Source: a virus. Taken from it: a stretch of DNA of 22,592 nt. The DNA lies in IMG/VR virus record IMGVR_UViG_3300042914_000546, positions 1-22,592 of that record, one strand, 5' to 3'. The notes beneath the pieces were generated by a model that saw nothing but the letters and a program-made list of their open reading frames with translations, was not told the origin of the DNA and made no database searches. Below, in pieces: positions 6,940-22,395 of the stretch (position 1 is the first letter of the stretch; every line of letters begins with the position of its first letter). The translations under genes and the position numbers were made by a program.

Positions 6940-9900
6940 TTAACCCCTAGCTGACTTTTGCTTGCTGGTCTTCTTGAGGTACTCAAGAGGGGACTTGGCA
7001 GGCGGTGGGAGATCCTTCGGACCAGACGACCTCGCGTGAGCACGGATTGAGTGCATCATGTCGTAGAGTTTATCTGATCCAGCCTTCGTTGAGCCATTTC
7101 CTAGCGCAGCAACTACGTCCGCGGGAAAGACGAATTCACCGTCCGCAAGCATCGCAGGAATGTCGTCTGACTGTCCATCTCCCGGACCCGTCACCGCATC
7201 ACCGTGACGGAAGTCAACTCTGGCCTTACCGGAGTGGTGAACTACGTTCAATCCACCCTTCGCATACTGCCCGTACCGGGTTCCACCGCCAGCAGCAAAC
7301 ATCGGCGTTGCAAGTCCACCAGCCTTGAATCCAAAAGGACTCTGCTGCTCTTGTGGCTTGTTTTCTCCATACGGATCAAGTAGATCATCAATACTTGTCT
7401 CTTGCCCGTATGCGTAGCGATCAGGCTGAGTTTGTTGTTGCGGTGCCATAGTTGTTTGCTGCTGTGTGGTTGGAGTGAAGTCACCCTTCTCAACTTGAGA
7501 GAAGAACGCTGCCAGAGGGCCAAGGTACTTGGATTGTCCAGATGTTTGCAACGGAGACAGTTTCGTCTCTGTTTCTGTTTTGGCTGGGCCTGCTGCAGGC
7601 TTGAGCATCTCCAAGCCAGTCTGGCGCCTTTGCTTGGCTTCTTGTTCAGCTTTGGCTTTGGCCGCATCAGCAAGGCGCTTCTGCTCCATCTGCTGAAACT
7701 GCCCCGTCAGATCAGTTTTCAGGTCAGCAATATCCCCAAACAAACCAGTCGGCGCCCACCGGCTTCCGGGAGCAAACTCAGGAGGCTCACCACTACCCGT
7801 AGTCGCTCTATTGAGGAAGTCGTAATCAGACTGGTCGATCTTCCCGTCACGGTTAACGTCATACGTTAAGTCAGGAGTGGTTGTTACTTCTCCCTTGATA
7901 ACACTGTTGACGTAATCTAGATCGGCTTGAGTGACTGCCTGCGCAGGCTTGCCAAGCAACGTAGATGCCTCGTCAATCTGCTTCTGGAGCGCAGTTTGAC
8001 CGCTTGTGATTTGTCCAGAAAGTTGAGTCTTGGCCTCAGTGATCTGGCCTTGAAGATTCTGAGCAGTAGTGCCCAGTTGGGTAGCAACATCTCCAATTGC
8101 GCGAGACAGCGCCTGATCCCGAGACAGGCCCTGAGCTTCGTATTCGGCAGCCTTAGTATTGATCCTAGTCTCAGCATCAGACAGAGCCGTACCAAGCCCC
8201 TCCAGGCCGGTCGTAATCTGTTGCCCTAATGCGGTCTGAGAAGCCTCAATCTCTGCCCGAAGATCGGAAGCAGTGCTCCCAAGCTGGGACAGAATGTCAG
8301 ACTTGGTTGTCCCAAGATCAGTTGCAACCTGATCCAGTCCGGCCTGGATTGCCTGATCGCGTGTGAGACCCCTAGATTCCGCTGCAGCAATTGCCTCATT
8401 CAAACGCTGTTCAGTAGAAGTGATCTGCTGCCCCAGCGCTGCTTGAGAAGCCTCAATCTCACCACGCAGAGTAGATTCAGTCGTGCCAATCTGCGTGAGC
8501 AAATCAGACTTGGTAGTTCCAAGATCTGTAGCTACCGTGTCCAAAGCGGACTCGATAGCTTGGTCTCTGGTAAGGCCTCTGGCTTCTGCAGCAGCAATTG
8601 CGTCTTGCAGGCGGGTCTCTACGTTCCCAATCTCAGCAGTTACAGCACCTAATTGGGTTGAGAAGTCAGTCCTAAGTTGTTCTTCTGTCTTGCCAATTTG
8701 ACCCAGCAAGTCCTGCTTGGTAGTGCCAAGCTCCGAAGATACAGAGTCAATTGCTGCTTGAAGTGCAGCATCTCCCTGCAACCCCGCAGCTTTGGCTGCA
8801 TCAATTGCTGCGGTGAGTCTGGACTCCACATTGCCAAGCTCTGCAGTAACTCCACCCAGTTGCGTAGAGAACTCAGTACGCAACGCAGCTTCAGTAGTGC
8901 CAAGCTGAGACAGCAGGTTATCTCGCGTGGTCCCCAGGTTAGAGGCAACAGAGTTAATCGCCGTCTGCAATGCAGCATCACCTTGAAGACCAGCAGTTCT
9001 AGCATCCTGAATTGCTTGTGAAAGTCTTGATTCAAGGCTGGCATTTACATCCGTAGTTGCAGGGGATGCAGGAGTAGGGGCCGGTGGCGCAGGCGTTGGA
9101 GCAGGCGGTGCAGGCGTCGGTGCTGGGGGCGCCGGTGTAGGAGCAGGAGGTGCAGGCGTCGCCGCAGGAGGTGCGGGTGTAGGTGCGGGAGGCGCAGGAG
9201 TTGGAACAGGAGGTGCAGGAGTTGGAACAGGAGGTGCAGGAGTTGGTGCAAGCGGTGCAGGTGTTGGTGCAAGCGGGGCAGGTGTTGGTGCAGGAGGCGC
9301 AGGTGTTGGAGCAGGCGGAGCAGGAGTTGGCGCAAGCGGGGCAGGTGTTGGAGCGGGAGGTGCAGCAGTGGGAGGGGTAACAGCAGGAGGCGTAACAGCG
9401 GGGGGAGTAACAGCGGGGGGAGTGGTTCCCGCCGTCGGGCCTCCAGTAGTAGTCGGAGTATTGGCAGTCAGCCCAAGGTCAACGTAGTTTTTAATGATTG
9501 TTCTAGCTTGCTCTGGAGTCGCAGAAATAACCTCCAAAGAAGCATCTGAAACACTGCCCGCAGGAACCCCCTGATCAGAAAGAGACTTGAGGTTTGTGGC
9601 GTAGGCGTCAAAACTAAAGTCAGACTGCTCAAGCGCGGCAGTGGTTACCTTGTTGAAATTATCAAGTGAAACAGTAACGCCTTTGATATCAAAGATGGGG
9701 GCCTGAGCGTTGAATGATCCGGGCTGTACTTGAACCGACCCATCTATAAATTGCTGCAAAGTCACAGGCCTACCAATCGAATCAACCGCAACCTGCATGT
9801 TGTAGTTGATGGCCGATGCAGACATGATGCCGCTGGCAACACCCATGCCGATAGCACCACCGATAGCGCCTGCAGTCTGAGCCTGATTCCAGTCAACTTG

Positions 9901-12900
9901 ACCAAATGAGTTGTATTGAACAGAGGCGTTTTGCAAGAACTCTTCGCCCCATTCCGTCACATACTGCTTGCCCGCCAGCTTCGTAAAGGTGCCTGCCGTG
10001 ATCTTTGTGGCCTCACCCATGAATGCTTTCACTAGGGCGCTATCGGCAATCAGGTTAGATCCAAATCCAACAACAGCAGCCTGCGCACCAGACTTATATG
10101 CTTGAGACTTAGCATATTCGTCTGAACCGCCAGCCCTCTTAATGTTGTCGTATGTCTCTCCAAAGTTTGCAGAGAAAGATTCACCTGCATTAAGTACGGC
10201 GTCTGTACCAGTAGCGGCCCAGAATCCGATAGCCTTGCCAGCAATCCCACTTACGATGCGGCCAACACCACCAGAAGCGATGAGCATTGGCACTTCTTGG
10301 ACGGCCTCTTTGCCGACCATAGTAAGTGCGCCAAGCGGGTTGTCTTTAGCCGCACGGAAAAATGCCTTGGACTTTTCAATAACACCATTTGCCGACTGGA
10401 CAGCATTTACGATGTTGTCTTCTTGTTGCTTAGTGGTCGCAGACTGAATACTCGCGCCATACTTGGACAACCAATCAGCGGTACGCGAGACGACATTGTC
10501 CCGCTGCACAATCCCAGAAGCCCACGCAAGATCGTTGGCGAGCTTTACAAGCTCACCCCCGCCCTGAGCAACAACAGAAGCAAATTCAGTCAGCGCAGCC
10601 GCATTACCGCCGCCGTACTTGTTAATGGTATCAACCACCGCCTTAGCGCCATTGATGACAGAAGCACTGACAATGGACTTGTTGGGGTCCAGCTTAGAAA
10701 CGTAGCTGAGATATTGCTGCGGCGCAGCAGAAGAAGGGTCTTCTGGCGAGATGATTTGAATGTTTGAATCATCAACTTCCAAGCTGCTCGGCAGGGCTTG
10801 AGAGGTAACCCAAGCAAAGGAGCCGTTGGACAAGATGATTGGCGCCGCGCCATTAGACTCAAACGCTTCTGCAGACGTTGCAAGCCTGACCCCAGGCGGA
10901 AGATAAGGCAGCGCCATAGTGTTTGCGTCTGGCGTATCCGATGTGTATCCGACTCCTCTAATCTCTACCCGGAAACCATCACCCTGGCTTGAGTTGTTGT
11001 AAGCCGTCTTGATGTCATCAAGGGTTCCAGTGTTGCCGTTGATGAAGTCTTGAATTGATGCGCCCTTCAGTGCGAGAACATCATTGCCATACAAGGCGTG
11101 TGCAGACTTGACAAGTTGCTGCAACTTCTCAGGAGGAGCCTGCTCCCAAGTCAACCCTTCGGCCTTTAGAGCGCCAGTAATTAGGCGCATCGTCTCTTTC
11201 AACAACCCACCATCAAACGATGCGGCGATGTTGCTGTCGTTGACAAGGTAGGTCTTGCCGTCATAGGTGTAGTTGTTGTACCCGGCCTGCTTAGCCGCAA
11301 GCTCTGCAGCGCCTTGATCAGCAAACACATCACCACGGAACGTAACTGCCTCAATATCCGACAACCGCTGCGCAAACGTCTCTGCCTGGGCTCGACTGCC
11401 GGATCGCATAGTTGCAATCTCATCAGGCGTCAGGGGGCGATCTAGGTTGGCCTTCTCAGCAAACGCTTCAGCTTCTCCAGTAGAGACGCCACGCATGTTG
11501 TAGACAAGATTGTCATAGCTCTTGCTGGTGACTTTTTGAATGAATGAAGGAGTAATGTTGTACTCGTTCATCACATTCAGAAGGTCTTCATCTGTTGCTT
11601 CTGGATTACGCAAAACCTTCTGCAACTCAGTCAATCGCAACTCATCCGCAGCAGTATTGGCTCGTATCTGGTTGTCTAGACCGACCCTTGCTGTTGCCTC
11701 ATCCATCCCCGTAAAAGTGGACAGAAGATCAGCATCAGCATCAGTTGCGTCCTTACCAGTAAGCTGCTTGTAGAACGCCCTGATCTCTTCAGGAGTAGTC
11801 GTCTGCTCGTTGATGTACTGAGCAGCAGCAGCTTTCGGGTCTTTCTGCTGAGCAAGACGGTCTACAAGCTCCTTTTGACGGTCATCCAGACTGTAATAGC
11901 TGGCCTCGGTAATGATCCCGGCCTTCTTCAGTTCGTCCAGCGCAGGACCGGCTTTGAGTACCTTCTGCAGTTCTTGCTGAGCCTGACCAACCGCCCAATT
12001 GACCGCAGATTGCGATAGATCGCCGCCATCAATAGCGGTGCGCAGCATCGTTGTGACAAACGACTGCGTCCTTTGATCCGCTTTGCTGAAATCAGGGATT
12101 TGACTCAAGCCATAAGACAACAACCCTTCTTTGGCTGCACTGGCAAGCATGCCCCCAACATCAACATCTTTGCCTTGCAATGCAGAACTGATTGATTGCC
12201 TGATAGTGCTTTGCACTGCGCTAGGCAAATTCTTGAAATCCGGAATTTGCCCAATAGCCAAATCAACAGCACCAGAAGCAAGCGTTCCGACAATCGCGGA
12301 CTCTACGTCTCCCCCAAGCAGAACAGCTTTTGTGGCGTTGGTAGCTACATCTGTGACGAGCTTCAGACCTGCTGCGTTGTCAAAGACGGTCTTTGCAGCT
12401 TCTCCGACAAAGTTGCCAACTTCAGCGCCAGCATAAGATGCCAAGGAACTCTTGACGGCAGCACCAACATCGCCACCGTTCATGACGGTATTGACAATAG
12501 TGTTGCCAATAAGCGCATTCGTGGCAGCACTAACGGAGACGCCTAGTCCACTTGTAACCGCGCTACCAATTGCCGCCCCAGCGCCAGTAAATGTAAGTGC
12601 AAGACCGATAGCGACGGACCTGATTGCGCTGGCATCACTGCTTGAACCCCAAACAGGAATCAACCGTCCATCAGGCGTAGCAATCAGACTTACGTTGCCT
12701 TTCCCTTCAGCAGTCCATGCCGCTTGAGATCCTGGGGCAAACTTGGCCTGACTTATGTCAGTTATGCCGTTTTCAACGAGCTTGCGTGCAAAGTCATTAG
12801 CAACCACTGGCAGCAGACGGCCGCCCATCTCTGCTTGTGGCGTTCCAGCACTGCCAATACCTACGTTTTCCCCAAGCCCTTGCCAGCTTTGAAGTAGTTG

Positions 12901-13776
12901 GTTGGTAATAGTTCCTATTTGCTCGTTTTTTAGCGCAGCCTGAGCATTAGTTGCAGCCTTTGAATACTGTAACTTTACCCAATCGTCATATTGATATGGT
13001 ACTTCTTCTGGTCTACTTATATTCAAACGATCAGCATAAGGGTCAACCGGAGCTTCTCGCGCCAACTCATAGGCAACAAGTTCGTTTTGCCAAATGTCCT
13101 CACCTAACGTCGGCGCCACATAATACTTCTGTGCCGCTCCAAGCGTAGACGGATCAAACTTATACGCCGTAGATGGCGCCGCAGCAGGAGCAGCGGTAGG
13201 TGCTGGAGTAGGCGACGGAGTAGGGGCCGCTGTAGGGGCCGGTGTGGGCGCGGGAGTAGGTGCTGGAGTTGGGGCAGGTGTCGGGGCTGGTGTGGGCCCC
13301 GGTGTGGGAGCGGGTGTCGGTGCAGGTGTCGGTGCAGGCGGCTGCCACGGCATGGGCTCAACAACCGCTTCGGGCTGTGAAGCCGGGCCGACAAAATCGG
13401 GGTTGCTTGGGTTAGTCGCCCAATCCGGCAGGCTCACCGCTGGGGCGGGGGCCGCAGTGGGCGCCGGAGTCGGTGCGGGGGTGGGTGCCGGAGTTGGGGC
13501 TTGAGTCGGAGTTGAAGCCGGTGTTGGCGCGGGGGCTATATATCGATTTGCCTCAATCCAATCAATAGTCTCCAACGATTCACCAGCTACAGCCAACTCT
13601 AGTGGTGTAACTTGGTTTTCGTTAAACCAGTCAAGTTTCTTTCGTGTACCTTCCGCGCCTGTCCAAGAATACCAATCAGAGGGGAGCATCGCTTCAATAT
13701 CTCGAATGCCCGATAAAAATGAGTCTGCATCCGCATAAGCGTTCTCAAGCTCGGGTTCGGTAGCAAGTCGTCGCAT
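6940..13776 (-). CDS. Giant 2278-aa multidomain virion protein, likely ejected or tape-measure-like
   Basis: This one gene fills 30 percent of the window. Domains in order are an N-terminal helical part containing WFNENQVTPLELAVAGES (about residues 50-67), two TPAP-type linkers (about 81-112 and 146-199), and an Ala/Gly-rich membrane-compatible region (about 380-560). A helical region with TTTPEEIRAFYKQLTG and a GYNNYTYDGKTYLV element (near 830) follows. Next are hydrophobic stretches near 1148-1200 and 1299-1324 that flank TEWGEEFLQNASVQ, and a PPAPTPA linker (about 1450-1572). The end holds five 69-residue coiled-coil repeats (1582-1937), an EF-hand-like DVNRDGKIDQSD (1973-1984), a Gln-rich stretch and a C-terminal block with GPGDGQSDDIPAMLADGEF (about 2199-2217). 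I associate that block with many large phage structural proteins. Size, membrane-like segments and polyvalent-protein resemblance suggest an ejected internal protein comparable in role to T7 gp16; a tape-measure role is the alternative. No lytic transglycosylase motif was recognised. The start follows the upstream stop by 1 nt and lacks a good ribosome site, so reinitiation is likely. Confidence 0.75.
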   Translation of the reverse strand: MRRLATEPELENAYADADSFLSGIRDIEAMLPSDWYSWTGAEGTRKKLDWFNENQVTPLELAVAGESLETIDWIEANRYIAPAPTPASTPTQAPTPAPTPAPTPAPTAAPAPAVSLPDWATNPSNPDFVGPASQPEAVVEPMPWQPPAPTPAPTPAPTPGPTPAPTPAPTPAPTPAPTPAPTAAPTPSPTPAPTAAPAAAPSTAYKFDPSTLGAAQKYYVAPTLGEDIWQNELVAYELAREAPVDPYADRLNISRPEEVPYQYDDWVKLQYSKAATNAQAALKNEQIGTITNQLLQSWQGLGENVGIGSAGTPQAEMGGRLLPVVANDFARKLVENGITDISQAKFAPGSQAAWTAEGKGNVSLIATPDGRLIPVWGSSSDASAIRSVAIGLALTFTGAGAAIGSAVTSGLGVSVSAATNALIGNTIVNTVMNGGDVGAAVKSSLASYAGAEVGNFVGEAAKTVFDNAAGLKLVTDVATNATKAVLLGGDVESAIVGTLASGAVDLAIGQIPDFKNLPSAVQSTIRQSISSALQGKDVDVGGMLASAAKEGLLSYGLSQIPDFSKADQRTQSFVTTMLRTAIDGGDLSQSAVNWAVGQAQQELQKVLKAGPALDELKKAGIITEASYYSLDDRQKELVDRLAQQKDPKAAAAQYINEQTTTPEEIRAFYKQLTGKDATDADADLLSTFTGMDEATARVGLDNQIRANTAADELRLTELQKVLRNPEATDEDLLNVMNEYNITPSFIQKVTSKSYDNLVYNMRGVSTGEAEAFAEKANLDRPLTPDEIATMRSGSRAQAETFAQRLSDIEAVTFRGDVFADQGAAELAAKQAGYNNYTYDGKTYLVNDSNIAASFDGGLLKETMRLITGALKAEGLTWEQAPPEKLQQLVKSAHALYGNDVLALKGASIQDFINGNTGTLDDIKTAYNNSSQGDGFRVEIRGVGYTSDTPDANTMALPYLPPGVRLATSAEAFESNGAAPIILSNGSFAWVTSQALPSSLEVDDSNIQIISPEDPSSAAPQQYLSYVSKLDPNKSIVSASVINGAKAVVDTINKYGGGNAAALTEFASVVAQGGGELVKLANDLAWASGIVQRDNVVSRTADWLSKYGASIQSATTKQQEDNIVNAVQSANGVIEKSKAFFRAAKDNPLGALTMVGKEAVQEVPMLIASGGVGRIVSGIAGKAIGFWAATGTDAVLNAGESFSANFGETYDNIKRAGGSDEYAKSQAYKSGAQAAVVGFGSNLIADSALVKAFMGEATKITAGTFTKLAGKQYVTEWGEEFLQNASVQYNSFGQVDWNQAQTAGAIGGAIGMGVASGIMSASAINYNMQVAVDSIGRPVTLQQFIDGSVQVQPGSFNAQAPIFDIKGVTVSLDNFNKVTTAALEQSDFSFDAYATNLKSLSDQGVPAGSVSDASLEVISATPEQARTIIKNYVDLGLTANTPTTTGGPTAGTTPPAVTPPAVTPPAVTPPTAAPPAPTPAPLAPTPAPPAPTPAPPAPTPAPLAPTPAPLAPTPAPPVPTPAPPVPTPAPPAPTPAPPAATPAPPAPTPAPPAPTPAPPAPTPAPPAPTPASPATTDVNASLESRLSQAIQDARTAGLQGDAALQTAINSVASNLGTTRDNLLSQLGTTEAALRTEFSTQLGGVTAELGNVESRLTAAIDAAKAAGLQGDAALQAAIDSVSSELGTTKQDLLGQIGKTEEQLRTDFSTQLGAVTAEIGNVETRLQDAIAAAEARGLTRDQAIESALDTVATDLGTTKSDLLTQIGTTESTLRGEIEASQAALGQQITSTEQRLNEAIAAAESRGLTRDQAIQAGLDQVATDLGTTKSDILSQLGSTASDLRAEIEASQTALGQQITTGLEGLGTALSDAETRINTKAAEYEAQGLSRDQALSRAIGDVATQLGTTAQNLQGQITEAKTQLSGQITSGQTALQKQIDEASTLLGKPAQAVTQADLDYVNSVIKGEVTTTPDLTYDVNRDGKIDQSDYDFLNRATTGSGEPPEFAPGSRWAPTGLFGDIADLKTDLTGQFQQMEQKRLADAAKAKAEQEAKQRRQTGLEMLKPAAGPAKTETETKLSPLQTSGQSKYLGPLAAFFSQVEKGDFTPTTQQQTTMAPQQQTQPDRYAYGQETSIDDLLDPYGENKPQEQQSPFGFKAGGLATPMFAAGGGTRYGQYAKGGLNVVHHSGKARVDFRHGDAVTGPGDGQSDDIPAMLADGEFVFPADVVAALGNGSTKAGSDKLYDMMHSIRAHARSSGPKDLPPPAKSPLEYLKKTSKQKSARG
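7858..7860 (-). other. Start of EF-hand/dockerin-like calcium loop in the giant protein
   Basis: The codon for D1973 opens the loop D-V-N-R-D-G-K-I-D-Q-S-D (down to 7825), which fits the EF-hand or dockerin consensus DxNxDGxIxxxD with all ligand positions present. A single loop follows directly after the coiled-coil repeats. Calcium binding is predicted from the motif only. Confidence 0.6.
7966..9033 (-). repeat. Five tandem 69-residue (207-nt) coiled-coil repeats in the giant gene
   Basis: Repeats start at protein residues 1582, 1651, 1720, 1789 and, after an 11-residue insert, 1869. Each contains GL(Q/T/S)..(A/Q)(A/I) near position 15, LGTT at 33-36, and in most a second GTT/GKT/GST at 45-47. 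Repeats 1 and 2 are closest to each other, as are 3 and 4, suggesting successive duplications. Spacing of hydrophobic residues is often 11. Confidence 0.85.
9060..9430 (-). repeat. Pro-rich low-complexity tract, 21-nt and 15-nt tandem units
   Basis: This encodes a linker of about 124 residues in the giant protein (residues about 1450-1572). Most of it is the 7-residue unit PAPPAPT (21 nt), with variants carrying L or V. The N-terminal end of the linker is the 5-residue unit PPAVT (15 nt) in about four copies. Unit numbers may vary between related phages by slippage or recombination. Confidence 0.85.
13180..13340 (-). repeat. TPAP tetrapeptide (12-nt) repeat tract
   Basis: A linker of about 54 residues (146-199 of the giant protein) is made of APTP units with occasional G, A or S substitutions. 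It is separated from the first TPAP tract by a non-repetitive segment of about 33 residues that contains EPMPWQPP. Confidence 0.85.
13441..13537 (-). repeat. First TPAP repeat tract near N-terminus of the giant protein
   Basis: About 32 residues (81-112) of PTPA-type repeats follow the N-terminal helical domain. The unit is the same 12 nt as in the second tract, but third-codon bases differ, so the copies are not recent perfect duplicates. Confidence 0.8.
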
Positions 13777-13777
13777 A

Positions 13778-14119
13778 TTAATTTACCGCGGGATTGATTG
13801 CGCCTAGCAGAGCCTGAGCCCAGTCTTGCCAGTCGTCGTAAGTGTCTGTTGCGGGGACTGCCTCGTTGGTGAAGACGTCAATTGCCTTCAAGCCATTTCC
13901 CCAGAGCTTCCAGTCCGTGTTCTGAGTTGGGATCTCCAAATGGTTGACAGCATATTGTTCTGCCATCAGACTTGCCCACGACTCAAAGGTGTGATACCTC
14001 GGATCATAGACAAGTGGAGCACTTCCCGCCACCCCTGTTGATGAGGGAGCAAGGCCAAACGTAGCCACCAGCATCGGAGAAAACCCAATCCCGAATAGAG
14101 CTACTGACCTTGGCGTCAT
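13778..14119 (-). CDS. 113-aa phage protein with repeated W-rich DW..WA motif
   Basis: The N-terminus is hydrophobic (VALFGIGFSPMLVATFGLAP, residues 6-25); it may be a beta element rather than a signal peptide. After it come three related segments, each with a Trp pair or single Trp after an acidic residue: FESWASLM (W48), NTDWKLWG (W70, W73) and YDDWQDWA (W97, W100). P64 and P89 precede the second and third. Proteins ending in F.DW..WA..L are frequent among late genes of phages, with unknown role. It begins in an ATGA overlap with the 22-residue repeat protein and stops 1 nt before the giant protein. A virion role is inferred only from position. Confidence 0.7.
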   Translation of the reverse strand: MTPRSVALFGIGFSPMLVATFGLAPSSTGVAGSAPLVYDPRYHTFESWASLMAEQYAVNHLEIPTQNTDWKLWGNGLKAIDVFTNEAVPATDTYDDWQDWAQALLGAINPAVN

Positions 14120-15627
14120 GTCAGCCTCGTCACTACAGTCGTGAATCCATTGGTCTCAATAGACTGAGACAGCGTGCCTACAAACCTGCCATTGCGGGTT
14201 ACCTGCAACGTATCCGTCAGGGCATACAGAGCCGCAAGCTCTTCAATCATCACACCAGGATTGTCAGTTGTGTACGTCAGCCCAGCAGTCGTCTGTACCG
14301 TGACGTTGCCATTTCTGGCTTCAGAGATAGATTGCACAATGTCATCCACCGCCCTGAAGTTAGTGCCTACAGTCAAAGACGTCGAGTCAAGCCCATTGAG
14401 CTTGTAAATCTGCTGCAGCAGCCTAGCCTGGGCTCTGGTAATCGTGTACGTCCCAAGTTCTACCGCAGCACTGAAGAACTGGTTTGTGTTGACGTACAGA
14501 GGCGGCTGTAGATCAATCGGCCCAGGCGTGACCGTAGGCGAATAGAAGGTGTTGGTGTTGACCACCAACGGCGGAACAAGCCGCGTGTCAACAGTCGCAG
14601 CGTAGAACGTATTGGGGTTCGTGTAGAGCCCCGGATTCAGGAAGTTCTGAGCCGTGACAGACGCTAAGTAGAACGTCTGTGTGTTGTCATACCTCGCAGG
14701 GTTGAGGCTGTACGTCCCTACAACTGTCGGCGTGTAGAACGTGTTTACGTTCGTGAACAGCGCAGGAAGAAGCTCATTCGCCGTCGAGATGCTGGGCGAA
14801 TAGAACGTCTGTGTGTTCGTGTACAGCCCAGGCAGCAGCGTATTCTGTGTACTGACTGTTGCGCTATAGAACGTCTGCGAGTTGACTACAAGGCTCGGCA
14901 GCAAGGCATTTGCTGCATCAACCGTGGCGCTGTAGAAGGTCTGAGTATTCGTGACCAGCGACGGACTAAGGGTGTATGCGCCCCCAACTGTTGCTGAGTA
15001 GAAGGTGTTGGTGTTGGTGTAAAGAGCAGGCGCTAACGTGTTCTCTGAAAGAACAACGGGCGCGTAGAACGCATTACTGTTGTCATACCTTGCAGGCAGC
15101 AACTCATTGCTGGCTACTACTACCGCGGCGTAGAAAGTATTGGTGTTCGTGTACAGCGCCGGGAACAGATTCTGCGTCGGGCCAGTCTGTGTAATGGTCG
15201 CCGAGTAAAACGTCTGTGCGTTGTCGTATCTGCTTGGGCTTAAGTTGTAAACCGCAGAAACATTTGCTGCATAGAACTGATTGGTGTTGTCGTACCTTGC
15301 CGCAGACAAGGTGTTGGTTGCGTCAACAACAGGCGTATAGAACGCATTTGTGTTGTCGTACCGCGCAGGCAACAGCGTATTGCTGGGTGCAACTGTGGCC
15401 GAATAGAAGGTCTGTGTATTGGTGTAAAGAGACGGCGCTAAAGTGCTGACCGCAGAGACAACAGGCGTGTAGAAGGTATTGCTGTTGTCGTAGCGTACCG
15501 GAACCAGCGTATTGCTTGCGGCAACCGTCGCTGCGTCAAAAGTATTGACGTTGTCGTACCGCGCAATCTGTGTGAGGGTTTGCGCGGGAGGCCCCGCCCC
15601 GGCAGATTGGAGCAGGGTGAGCAGCAT
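14116..15627 (-). CDS. 22-residue repeat virion protein (17 copies of L/R-Y-T/D-N...TFY...V)
   Basis: The 503-residue product has a short start (residues 1-19). Seventeen tandem repeats of 22 residues follow (20-395), with consensus P-x-[LR]-[YVF]-[TDV]-N-x-[NQ]-[TAQ]-F-[YFD] and then a strand ending in V and an N-L pair; copies 6, 15 and 16 have 25, 20 and 23 residues. A unique C-terminal domain (396-503) begins ITRAQARLLQQIYKLNGLD. Alternating hydrophobic and aromatic residues suggest a repetitive beta structure, perhaps a fibre shaft. I have seen NTNTFYSATV repeats in phage and prophage proteins, but no function is known to me. The start lies 3 nt after the stop of the 54-aa gene, so reinitiation is likely. 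It sits within the tail gene block, so a tail-exposed or adhesin role is the best guess. Confidence 0.75.
   Translation of the reverse strand: MLLTLLQSAGAGPPAQTLTQIARYDNVNTFDAATVAASNTLVPVRYDNSNTFYTPVVSAVSTLAPSLYTNTQTFYSATVAPSNTLLPARYDNTNAFYTPVVDATNTLSAARYDNTNQFYAANVSAVYNLSPSRYDNAQTFYSATITQTGPTQNLFPALYTNTNTFYAAVVVASNELLPARYDNSNAFYAPVVLSENTLAPALYTNTNTFYSATVGGAYTLSPSLVTNTQTFYSATVDAANALLPSLVVNSQTFYSATVSTQNTLLPGLYTNTQTFYSPSISTANELLPALFTNVNTFYTPTVVGTYSLNPARYDNTQTFYLASVTAQNFLNPGLYTNPNTFYAATVDTRLVPPLVVNTNTFYSPTVTPGPIDLQPPLYVNTNQFFSAAVELGTYTITRAQARLLQQIYKLNGLDSTSLTVGTNFRAVDDIVQSISEARNGNVTVQTTAGLTYTTDNPGVMIEELAALYALTDTLQVTRNGRFVGTLSQSIETNGFTTVVTRLT
14443..15570 (-). repeat. Seventeen 66-nt tandem coding repeats
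   Basis: Unit boundaries fall at protein residues 20, 42, 64, 86, 108, 130, 155, 177, 199, 221, 243, 265, 287, 309, 331, 351 and 374. Fourteen units are exactly 66 nt; length changes occur only in copies 6 (75 nt), 15 (60 nt) and 16 (69 nt), always in whole codons. Copies diverge in synonymous codons, so the array is old and maintained at protein level. Confidence 0.88.
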
Positions 15628-17417: not shown

Positions 17418-17849
17418 TTAGGTAATCCTTGCGCGTACACACTGCGCCCATGCCGTGCGGTTAGTGTCAAGCACAGTCATACGGGCGTTGTAGGTGTCAA
17501 TGTTGTTTAGCGATGTGACGTTGGCTACCGTGGTTACCGTGGTTACCGTGGTTACCGTGGTTACCGTGCCAGACTCAACCACCACCGTACCCCGCTGACG
17601 CTGCAAACTCTTGTCATACCCCATCGGGGCGTTCAAGTAGTTCAGCATTCGCACCAGCAGAAGCGCCATGCTCTGGCGAGTTTCCTCCGCTGCTGCGTCA
17701 GACACCGGCATCGGGTTTACGTCGGAGACATCAACCGCCGTATTATCCGCGCCAACGCCAATTTTTACGCGCTGGTGCAACACACCACCGATGTCGTCGG
17801 CAGCGATTACCGCACCAGAGCCTGGGGTATATCCTACGTTGTCAGCCAT
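17418..17849 (-). CDS. 143-aa virion-associated protein with VTT repeat
   Basis: The product begins MADNVGYTPGSGAVIAADDI and continues GGVLHQRVKIGVGADNTAVD. I recognise this N-terminus from small phage and prophage proteins encoded beside tail fibre genes and usually called structural. A helix (about residues 53-75, ETRQSMALLLVRMLNYLN) precedes a beta-like VTT tandem (about 93-107). The C-terminal part (about 115-143) ends ARMTVLDTNRTAWAQCVRAR. It is separated from the upstream gene by 38 nt, the largest gap in the late operon, in which I see no convincing promoter. The role is unknown. Confidence 0.7.
   Translation of the reverse strand: MADNVGYTPGSGAVIAADDIGGVLHQRVKIGVGADNTAVDVSDVNPMPVSDAAAEETRQSMALLLVRMLNYLNAPMGYDKSLQRQRGTVVVESGTVTTVTTVTTVTTVANVTSLNNIDTYNARMTVLDTNRTAWAQCVRARIT
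17527..17570 (-). repeat. 9-nt tandem repeat encoding V-T-T
   Basis: The plus strand shows ACCGTGGTT in four perfect copies from 17527 to 17562, then a partial copy. It codes for repeated V-T-T. A change in copy number would keep the reading frame, so it could vary in length without inactivating the gene. Confidence 0.85.
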
Positions 17850-20519: not shown

Positions 20520-21760
20520 CAGAAGGCACCGCCTTGAACGCCGCTTGCGAAGATACCCGCTCCTGTGATGGTCAATCCAGTCGACGTTAGGCCAAATCTC
20601 TTGGCCCCCAAAACAGTCATCCCAATCTCACCAGACCCAGGACGATACATACCAGTAGATGTTTCGCTTGCGAAGTACAGCGATGGGGCTCCTGCGTTAC
20701 CGTTGTCAAGTGACAGAACAGACGCACCGGCAGCAATCGTTGATGCGTTCAGAAGATTAACTGAGTCGCATAGCAAGATCACCTGCTGGCCCGCAGGAAT
20801 AATGGCTGTACCTCCACCAGAAACACCGGTAGTAAAGGTAATGGTATATCCGGAACCAGTTCCATCAGTCTGGTTAGTAACGTAGTAGACCTGAATCGTC
20901 TGAGGCAAAGTGACTGTCACATTGCCCGTAAGAGTCCCGGTGTACTTCTGGATTGGGTTTGAAGCCTCTGCCGCAGTCAACGAGTAAGCACCGGTTGTCA
21001 CGGCCTTCGTCAACTGCGTGAAATTAAACTGCGTGCTCTTCCCAAGGCCAACTGTGTAGTACGCAGTTCCTGAGCATGCAATCAAGCATGAGTCTGCAGG
21101 CTGCATATCAAGGCTCGCAGACCCATTGATCTGCGTTCCCCCAGGAGGAGTAACCGCCAGCGTCCCTGTCCCGCCATTGCGAACCAAGAAGTACCAATCG
21201 TCGCCAACCGTAGTGGCTACCGGCAGCGTCAGCGTTCCTGCGCCAGCAGTCCACACATAAGCACTGGCTCGATCTGCATCTACCGCGGTGTAGTTGGAAG
21301 AGAACGTATTTACAGGGAAAGCAGAATTCAGTGTGTTGCTGATTGCTTTGAGACCATATCCCGCAAGCGTCGAGGCATCAGCGTTAGACGTCCCTACACC
21401 AAACGCAATGATCCCCCACGTTCCGGCCGTGGTGGCGTTGGTCTTGATGTAGATGTACTTTGCTTCACTGGCGGCAATCGAAACAATCGTGTTGCCGTTG
21501 TAGTCAGTGACAACAAATGTGTTGGCACCAATGTTGCGGATCAGCGCATCTTGACCAACAGAAGCCTGATTGGCAGGCGGCATAGCCAGTTGCAGCGACC
21601 CAGCAGTCGCCGTAACGTCCATGATCCGCGCAGCATAGTCATCTGTCGCGTTACCGTTGATGGGCCACGAAAGAGTCGTGTTGGCCGACAGAGTGATGCT
21701 GCGATACGAGACATCCGTCGGCTGAATGACGTTCCCGGTAAACGGACTATTGAAGCTCAT
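20519..21760 (-). CDS. Three-domain tail fibre-like protein, [10 protein letters not shown] type
   Basis: The 413-residue product begins [20 protein letters not shown], a start I recognise from tail fibre or structural proteins in phages related to this one. It has three similar beta domains (about 22-150, 153-240 and 248-337), each with a TLTLP-like strand, a polar N/G-rich loop and a final strand reporting solvent-facing Gly/Tyr. A tail-fibre motif of the type [16 protein letters not shown] (360-375) follows. In other fibre proteins this motif is often repeated or followed by a chaperone domain; here only 38 residues remain after residue 375. It overlaps the preceding gene by 1 nt (TGATG). 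A fibre or receptor-binding role is likely but the receptor is unknown. Confidence 0.78.
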
Positions 21761-22395
21761 CAGGAATCCTTCGCAACAGCTTGCCTATCGCCAATCCTGA
21801 GCGTGTCTTCCGTCTTCAGGACATTGACGATTTGATCATATTGCGCCTGCCACATGCCCATTCTTTCGTCGTTCTTAAGGAACGGCATGGCCTGCAAAAG
21901 AGATCCATACAGGAGGGCCTGGGGAGCGTACTGCGTGAACCAGTTCGACTGATTTGAGGTATCTAGAGGCGCCAAGCGCTCGTAGTAGAGAACCTCGTAG
22001 GAGTAGTCATCTGCGGGAGTTGGGGCGACCAACCAGTGTGTGTAGTCGTAGTCGCAGTAATACTTTGGAACATCTTCCTGTGCGGGATCAGGCCAATACT
22101 CACGCAAATACTCGTACTTGCGTAGCAGGACAGGTTGTCTTTGGCCGCTGACCGTCACGTTCATTGAGACAGTCTTGCGCCACCGAGCAGGCTTATCAAT
22201 GGTGGCCTGCCCCTCAACCATGTTTGAGGTTGCAACCGTAAGGTTCCCCAAGAACTTCAGGTCGGCCGCCAAGACTTGCTCGGCCAGCATGATGAAGGTC
22301 GGGATCTTGTCAATCGTGGCTTGGTCTGTGCGCTCTAGATATGTCTCAATGTCAGCAGCCAAGCTGGAATACGTCATTACTGCTGCGGTAGGCAT
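21760..22395 (-). CDS. Head-tail adaptor protein, SU10-like
   Basis: The 211-residue product begins MPTAAVMTYSSLAADIETYL and fits the helical adaptor family of podoviruses such as SU10. It has a helical first half with a short loop and FIMLAEQVLAADLKFLGNL, then a beta insertion (PARWRKTVSMNV, LLRKYEYLREYW, VPKYYCDYDYTHWLVAPTPA, YEVLYYERLAPL). A long final helical stretch holds FTQYAPQALLYGSLLQAMPF and MWQAQYDQIVNVLK. Adaptors dock onto the portal and bind the tail nozzle, which fits the tail nozzle gene two genes downstream. The first ATG has an AGGG ribosome site at 22403-22406; the in-frame ATG at codon 7 lacks one. The family call is from remembered pattern, so confidence is moderate. Confidence 0.62.
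   Translation of the reverse strand: MPTAAVMTYSSLAADIETYLERTDQATIDKIPTFIMLAEQVLAADLKFLGNLTVATSNMVEGQATIDKPARWRKTVSMNVTVSGQRQPVLLRKYEYLREYWPDPAQEDVPKYYCDYDYTHWLVAPTPADDYSYEVLYYERLAPLDTSNQSNWFTQYAPQALLYGSLLQAMPFLKNDERMGMWQAQYDQIVNVLKTEDTLRIGDRQAVAKDS

Follow-up and report, generated by a model that had tools for sequence, protein, structure and literature searches.

The window analysed here is the whole of IMG/VR virus record IMGVR_UViG_3300042914_000546, a stretch of 22,592 bases, and the question it raises is why two positions within a short tandem protein repeat should vary together. The 17 copies of this repeat follow the consensus L-x-P-x-[R/L]-Y-[D/T/V]-N-x-N-x-F-Y-x-A-x-V, in which the R/L choice falls at position 4 and the D/T/V choice at position 6, and they are spaced by 22 residues in 13 of the 16 steps, the others being of 25, 20 and 23 residues. 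A preliminary description of the locus had pointed out that every copy with R also carries D and every copy with L carries T or V, and all 17 copies indeed obey this rule: seven are R-x-D (copies 1, 2, 4, 5, 6, 8 and 14) and ten L-x-[T/V], with T in copies 3, 7, 9, 10, 12, 13 and 15 and V in copies 11, 16 and 17. It had also argued from the variety of Arg codons that recent DNA duplication is not the simple explanation, and these codons do vary among the seven copies (CGG, CGC, CGG, AGG, AGA, AGG and AGG, in the order given above). The Asp codon at position 6, by comparison, is GAC in all seven, so that the codon-diversity argument is valid for position 4 only. In 17 exchangeable copies, a perfect 7/10 split would occur by chance once in 19,448, a figure that presumes exchangeability, when the window copies are in fact related and the pair was picked post hoc. 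For these two reasons the covariation was tested outside the window gene. Coordinates of the features referred to below are collected in the table.

Table. Features of the repeat locus and its surroundings in the window.
Feature	Coordinates	Strand	Remarks
Repeat-protein gene	14116..15627	minus	503 aa; relatives found in other contigs
17-repeat array	14443..15570	minus	residues ~19-395 of the 503-aa protein
Copy 1 R-Y-D	15553..15561	minus	repeat listing
Copy 2 R-Y-D	15487..15495	minus	repeat listing
Copy 4 R-Y-D	15355..15363	minus	repeat listing
Copy 5 R-Y-D	15289..15297	minus	repeat listing
Copy 6 R-Y-D	15223..15231	minus	repeat listing
Copy 8 R-Y-D	15082..15090	minus	repeat listing
Copy 14 R-Y-D	14686..14694	minus	repeat listing
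C-terminal non-repeat part, ~108 residues	14119..14442	minus	mix of helix and strand in a weak AlphaFold2 model
Small ORF, 54 aa	15631..15795	minus	directly upstream of the repeat gene; probably helical
SU10-type adaptor protein	21760..22395	minus	Pfam E 3e-28; phrog_2941 E 8.4e-33; marker of the head-tail/tail gene cluster

Related repeats were collected from viral contigs in three overlapping scans, which yielded 22, at least 119 and 80 loci. Six patterns, of which four contain YDN, served to fetch the contigs of the 22-locus scan, and [LR][YF][TDV]N those of the 80-locus scan; the motif of the scan with at least 119 loci was limited to residues after position 6 and therefore favoured no combination at positions 4 and 6. 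Genome contigs contributed three stretches, of which one (L144) gave an array, and phage records searched at E 1e-5 a single isolated phage with an array, Pseudanabaena phage Pam2. This phage was recovered again from the phage records when other array proteins served as queries, which additionally returned one Microcystis phage and seven Mycobacterium phage records at E values of 4e-4 to 7e-4. After translation of 222 sequences in six frames and removal of identical arrays, there were 121 arrays with 1088 repeats, corresponding to 910 distinct 23-residue repeats; in some cases several overlapping loci represent a single contig, and identical repeats were counted once. In the family motif the conserved F must be followed by Y, F, H or W, which leaves window copy 1, with FD, outside the family counts. 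The 222-sequence set underlies the two-by-two table, the counts of array families, the tree test and the partner counts per array given below, and an earlier set of 146 sequences underlies the neighbour shuffles, the counts of near-identical pairs and those of Arg codons in relatives.

Alignment with these relatives, which the preliminary description had proposed as a check, bore out the coupling across the 910 distinct repeats and 121 arrays. R or K at position 4 was joined by D, N or E at position 6 in 225 repeats and by another residue in 16, and repeats with other residues at position 4 had D, N or E at position 6 in 15 cases and something else in 654; position 6 is thus D, N or E in 225/241 repeats with R or K versus 15/669 without. 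Nor did R occur without D as often as with it, since D was its partner in 187 of 237 repeats, with N in 32 and T in 8 of the 50 that have a residue other than D. L (n = 639) was accompanied by T in 475 repeats, V in 64, S in 49, A in 27 and D in 3, which puts L-T and L-V together at 539 and L with D or N at just 5. K at position 4, found four times, had D (three) or N (one) at position 6 in every case, and of the 194 repeats with D at position 6, 190 have R or K at position 4. The rule is asymmetric, in that D needs a basic partner and R takes D, N and sometimes T.

The coupling is spread over many arrays. Three or more R occur in 40 arrays; in 33 of these the majority of R pair with D, and in the other seven they do not; the array of L076 has 12 R and no D at all, and that of L017 has six N versus two D. 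When arrays were grouped into 83 families, 44 of these contained both repeat types, 37 only L and two only R, and 536 of the 563 repeats in the mixed families obeyed the rule, 25 families being perfect and 19 having at least one exception. A relaxed motif lacking the conserved N or F gave 106 off-consensus stretches, largely noise (27 being A-T), among which R at position 4 was found three times, twice with D and once with N, and R with T or V was absent from the 40 commonest off-consensus kinds.

How specific the coupling is to these two positions was apparent from mutual information, computed on the contigs of the scan with at least 119 loci, whose motif is blind to positions 4-6. Among 253 position pairs, 4-6 ranked first, with an excess of 0.70 bits in the 644 distinct repeats among the matches listed; in the same matches, the next pairs lay in or beside the variable loop (19-20, 0.66 bits; 18-20, 0.55; 18-19, 0.46), and the remaining pairs within positions 3-16 had an excess of about 0.2 bits or less. 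Direct-coupling analysis also ranked 4-6 first; the scores that it assigned to pairs such as 7-11 and 7-12 were rejected as artefacts of columns fixed by the search motif.

Such a coupling would need no contact between side chains if the repeats descended from two ancient lineages, one R-type and one L-type, that spread by duplication and recombination and in which the codons for positions 4-6 travel as a short linked block. The uniform GAC codons of the window are in line with this, as are pairs of repeats at least 85% identical outside the codons compared, of which 222 agree at both sites, one differs at both and none differs at a single site, so that recent switches are rare. On a repeat tree built from codons other than those tested (60 bases per repeat, and hence noisy), however, position 4 changed 125 times and position 6 124 times, and both changed on one branch in 100 cases where 8.3 were expected, a ratio of 12.1 (96 coincident branches in a separate tie-breaking run on the same tree), versus ratios of 0.4 to 2.8 for nine control groupings of positions 2, 3, 5, 8, 9, 10, 13 and 14. 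Copying of a block spanning positions 4 to 6 should drag position 5 along, yet this position, itself variable, follows weakly at most (2.4-2.8 when scored as Y/other, 0.6 as aromatic/other). When the identity required outside the three codons was 80% or more, both sites differed in 42 pairs and a single site in four (146 sequences; five pairs with other residues were set aside). Arg codons of both the CGN and the AGR kind stand with D or N (142 and 33 of 175), and the K that replaces R shares its D and N partners, which also speaks against a block. Given same-branch switching and the poor following of position 5, shared descent or short-block copying explains the coupling poorly, and we regard two linked lineages as quite improbable; gene conversion of a very short tract may still lie behind the co-switching.

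Another way to dispense with a contact would be a constraint on the overall charge of a charge-poor fibre, with R and D balancing each other wherever they stand. Of the 998 charged residues at positions 0-20 of the 910 repeats, 445 are indeed either positive at position 4 or negative at position 6, but the 553 located elsewhere are unbalanced, with negatives over positives by 361 to 192, position 6 follows position 4 far better than any other position does, and the second partner of R is the uncharged N. Charge neutrality therefore seems to us very improbable as the constraint. What stands of the Arg-Asp pairing initially put forward is a coupling specific to positions 4 and 6 that goes beyond simple duplication; a strict salt bridge does not stand, in view of the R-N and R-T repeats and the L076 array. 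Judged from the sequences, the coupling looks like a true structural constraint, not an accident of one gene.

The preliminary description had gone on to suggest that the order of the two repeat types along the array may be functional, and here the data gave no support. Across 46 mixed arrays, near-duplicates included, the two members were of the same type in 319 out of 489 neighbouring pairs, versus 318.7 +/- 7.4 after shuffling. With one array taken per family, position 4 of a repeat was unrelated to position 4 of the next (z of -0.1), and cross-repeat coupling at positions 4 and 6 was absent altogether (z of -0.1 to 1.6). Close relatives keep the type order in the second half of the array, as would be expected of a functional code that sets a binding or assembly pattern, but they differ in the first half, and because neighbouring repeats show no preference for their own type, we find an order of R-D and L-T/V repeats acting as such a code scarcely credible. 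Neighbouring repeats were more alike than shuffled ones at positions 0, 1, 3, 5, 9, 10, 13, 17 and 18, a same-position likeness that is also expected from tandem duplication; since neighbours are alike there but not at positions 4 and 6, repeat type is independent of the neighbour even where the rest of the repeat follows.

Structure prediction, likewise proposed beforehand as a check on whether the two side chains face each other, gave AlphaFold2 models that were weak both for the whole protein (32 rows, mean pLDDT of 61.2) and for seven repeats (44 rows, 63.5). In both, positions 4-7 of most repeats were placed on a short strand and positions 10-12 on a second one. Residues i and i+2 of a strand share one face, and side chains 4 and 6 would therefore do so too, which fits a contact between them. 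The best VIA-align matches of both weak models were parallel beta-solenoids, such as pectate lyases, secretion domains and autotransporters (Z 12.3, rmsd 3.2 over 152 residues; Z 16.7, rmsd 3.5 over 259). Contrary to this likeness are the low confidence of the models, Foldseek searches that gave no match at E 0.001 in the PDB (full-length model) or BFVD (both models), and the bias of AlphaFold2, described in PMC11795689, to over-predict beta-solenoids for perfect repeats. Stacked solenoid coils would, moreover, juxtapose positions 4 and 6 of neighbouring repeats, which is where coupling is absent, and the repeat fold could equally be one hairpin per repeat.

As to the kind of protein that carries the array, the genes upstream of it in transcription order encode the SU10-type adaptor and a virion structural protein (phrog_3287), and those downstream a 2278-aa protein and one with a weak DNA-ejection match (E 2.8e-4). 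These adaptor, structural and DNA-ejection-like neighbours locate the repeat gene in the tail region of a tailed-phage genome, and by its neighbourhood the gene belongs to a structural/tail cluster. Of 12 other array records, 8 likewise have an SU10-type adaptor on the contig that carries the array, a co-occurrence at contig level among records that may be fragments. The profile of phrog_8501 (mycobacteriophage minor tail) matched five of the six other array proteins at E values of 1e-3 to 2.3e-9, L057 being the exception, although in four of these five no single stretch passes alone and the repeats inflate the summed scores. The window protein matched no PHROG profile, phrog_8501 included, at E 0.1, no NCBIfam entry at E 0.01 and no PDB sequence at E 10, and its two Pfam matches were both far below the cut-off. 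In Pam2, UQS94948.1 has the same repeat, stands among tail-annotated genes and has a small ORF directly upstream; it differs in an array that is L-type throughout, as read from its translation, in its C-terminal part and in being annotated as hypothetical. The adaptor and the tail genes of Pam2 together lead us to read the array, from this context, as probably a tail or appendage repeat segment.

Array copy number varies among relatives, and in other contigs arrays are flanked by differing N-terminal and C-terminal parts; the C-terminal non-repeat part of the window protein is kept in L001, L003 and L005. The repeat array thus behaves as if it were exchanged as a cassette. In L008, L012, L107, L054, L026, L057 and L087 the array is joined to different N-terminal parts (~240 aa, Gly-rich, or of a MAAAFE type), and the C-terminal parts of these proteins differ too, for example in having QTPxW repeats. 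In close relatives the array is preceded by near-identical versions of the 54-aa ORF; ORFs resembling it in L005, L030, L054 and Pam2 were grouped by eye. A profile of this small ORF was seeded with L005, L030, L054, L094, Pam2 and the window, so that its hits in those records arise by construction, and its non-seed hits were near-identical to the seeds; a BLASTP comparison of the window ORF with the small ORF of Pam2 found nothing.

The explanation that we consider likely is that these are beta-rich tandem repeats of a tail or appendage protein, of two interchangeable types that are kept by compensatory change. The array would form a segment of beta-rich repeats in tandem within a structural protein of the phage, which is probably a fibre or an appendage of the tail. 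Within each repeat, usually 22, 23 or 25 residues long, the residues at positions 4 and 6 would lie on one face of a short strand and make one side-chain contact with two accepted states, a polar one (D or N with R or, rarely, K) and an apolar one (L with T, V, S or A). Switches between the states would probably run from R-D through R-N and R-T to L-T, by single-nucleotide steps where codons allow (one base changes at each step from GAY through AAY to ACY, and one from CGN to CTN), and not via L-D; this path is the probable one because R-N and R-T repeats are seen and L is so rarely found with D or N. Arrays would grow, shrink and swap repeats by recombination; the two types would be interchangeable, and no rule governing neighbours was detected.

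Compensatory residue pairs are known in general, and so are beta repeats arranged in tandem in phage tails. In the literature searched, the exact repeat motif strings were not found and no title or abstract opening dealt with this repeat. Many uncultured phages carry members of the family, whose tested proteins have no NCBIfam match and none over the Pfam cut-off, and hundreds of natural near-copies flipping the same two residues would offer an unusually clean test bed for the compensatory evolution of a local contact. A bolder version, which we hold to be unlikely, is that this undescribed repeat family forms a two-tile surface, in which the i,i+2 contact flips as a unit via R-N or R-T and the tiles are mixed to tune the surface of the tail appendage with the fold unchanged.

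A looser coupling of the same kind may occur in distant tail repeats, between S and D/N, G and A, or K and E. By eye, phrog_8501 and Brujita gp24 resemble the array in having short tandem repeats of ~23 aa, each with a P towards its start and PTV towards its end; the gp24 repeats differ in being without the NTFY core, and profile comparison of a window-centred alignment with Brujita gp24 gave an unconvincing E of 0.054 and probability of 1%. The five short repeats of Brujita gp24 (L222:2971-3369) read R-A, K-E, R-A, K-E and R-S at the equivalents of positions 4 and 6 assigned by eye, E standing only with K in just these five. What we take to be a look-alike repeat class in viral contigs, named here by its motif IASAEAFGTPTV (41 stretches, L226-L266), has a similar period and layout and a 4-6 association too, with S accompanied by D or N in 29/69 repeats and G or A in 4/226. 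It differs in having R or K at position 4 in 0/317 repeats; its S-D/N repeats come from only six contigs, and the 4-6 pair ranks 6 of 210.

Repeats of other kinds were noticed in two further ORFs of the window. The 2278-aa ORF (6940-13776, minus strand) has Pro-Ala-Pro-Thr repeats, together with what are presumably coiled-coil-like repeats and, close to its end, a presumably dockerin-like DVNRDGKIDQSDYDFL stretch. A nine-base tandem repeat, TGGTTACCG, occupies 17522-17568 in 5.2 copies with 97% matches and lies inside a 143-aa ORF (17418-17849), in which it encodes repeated VTT.
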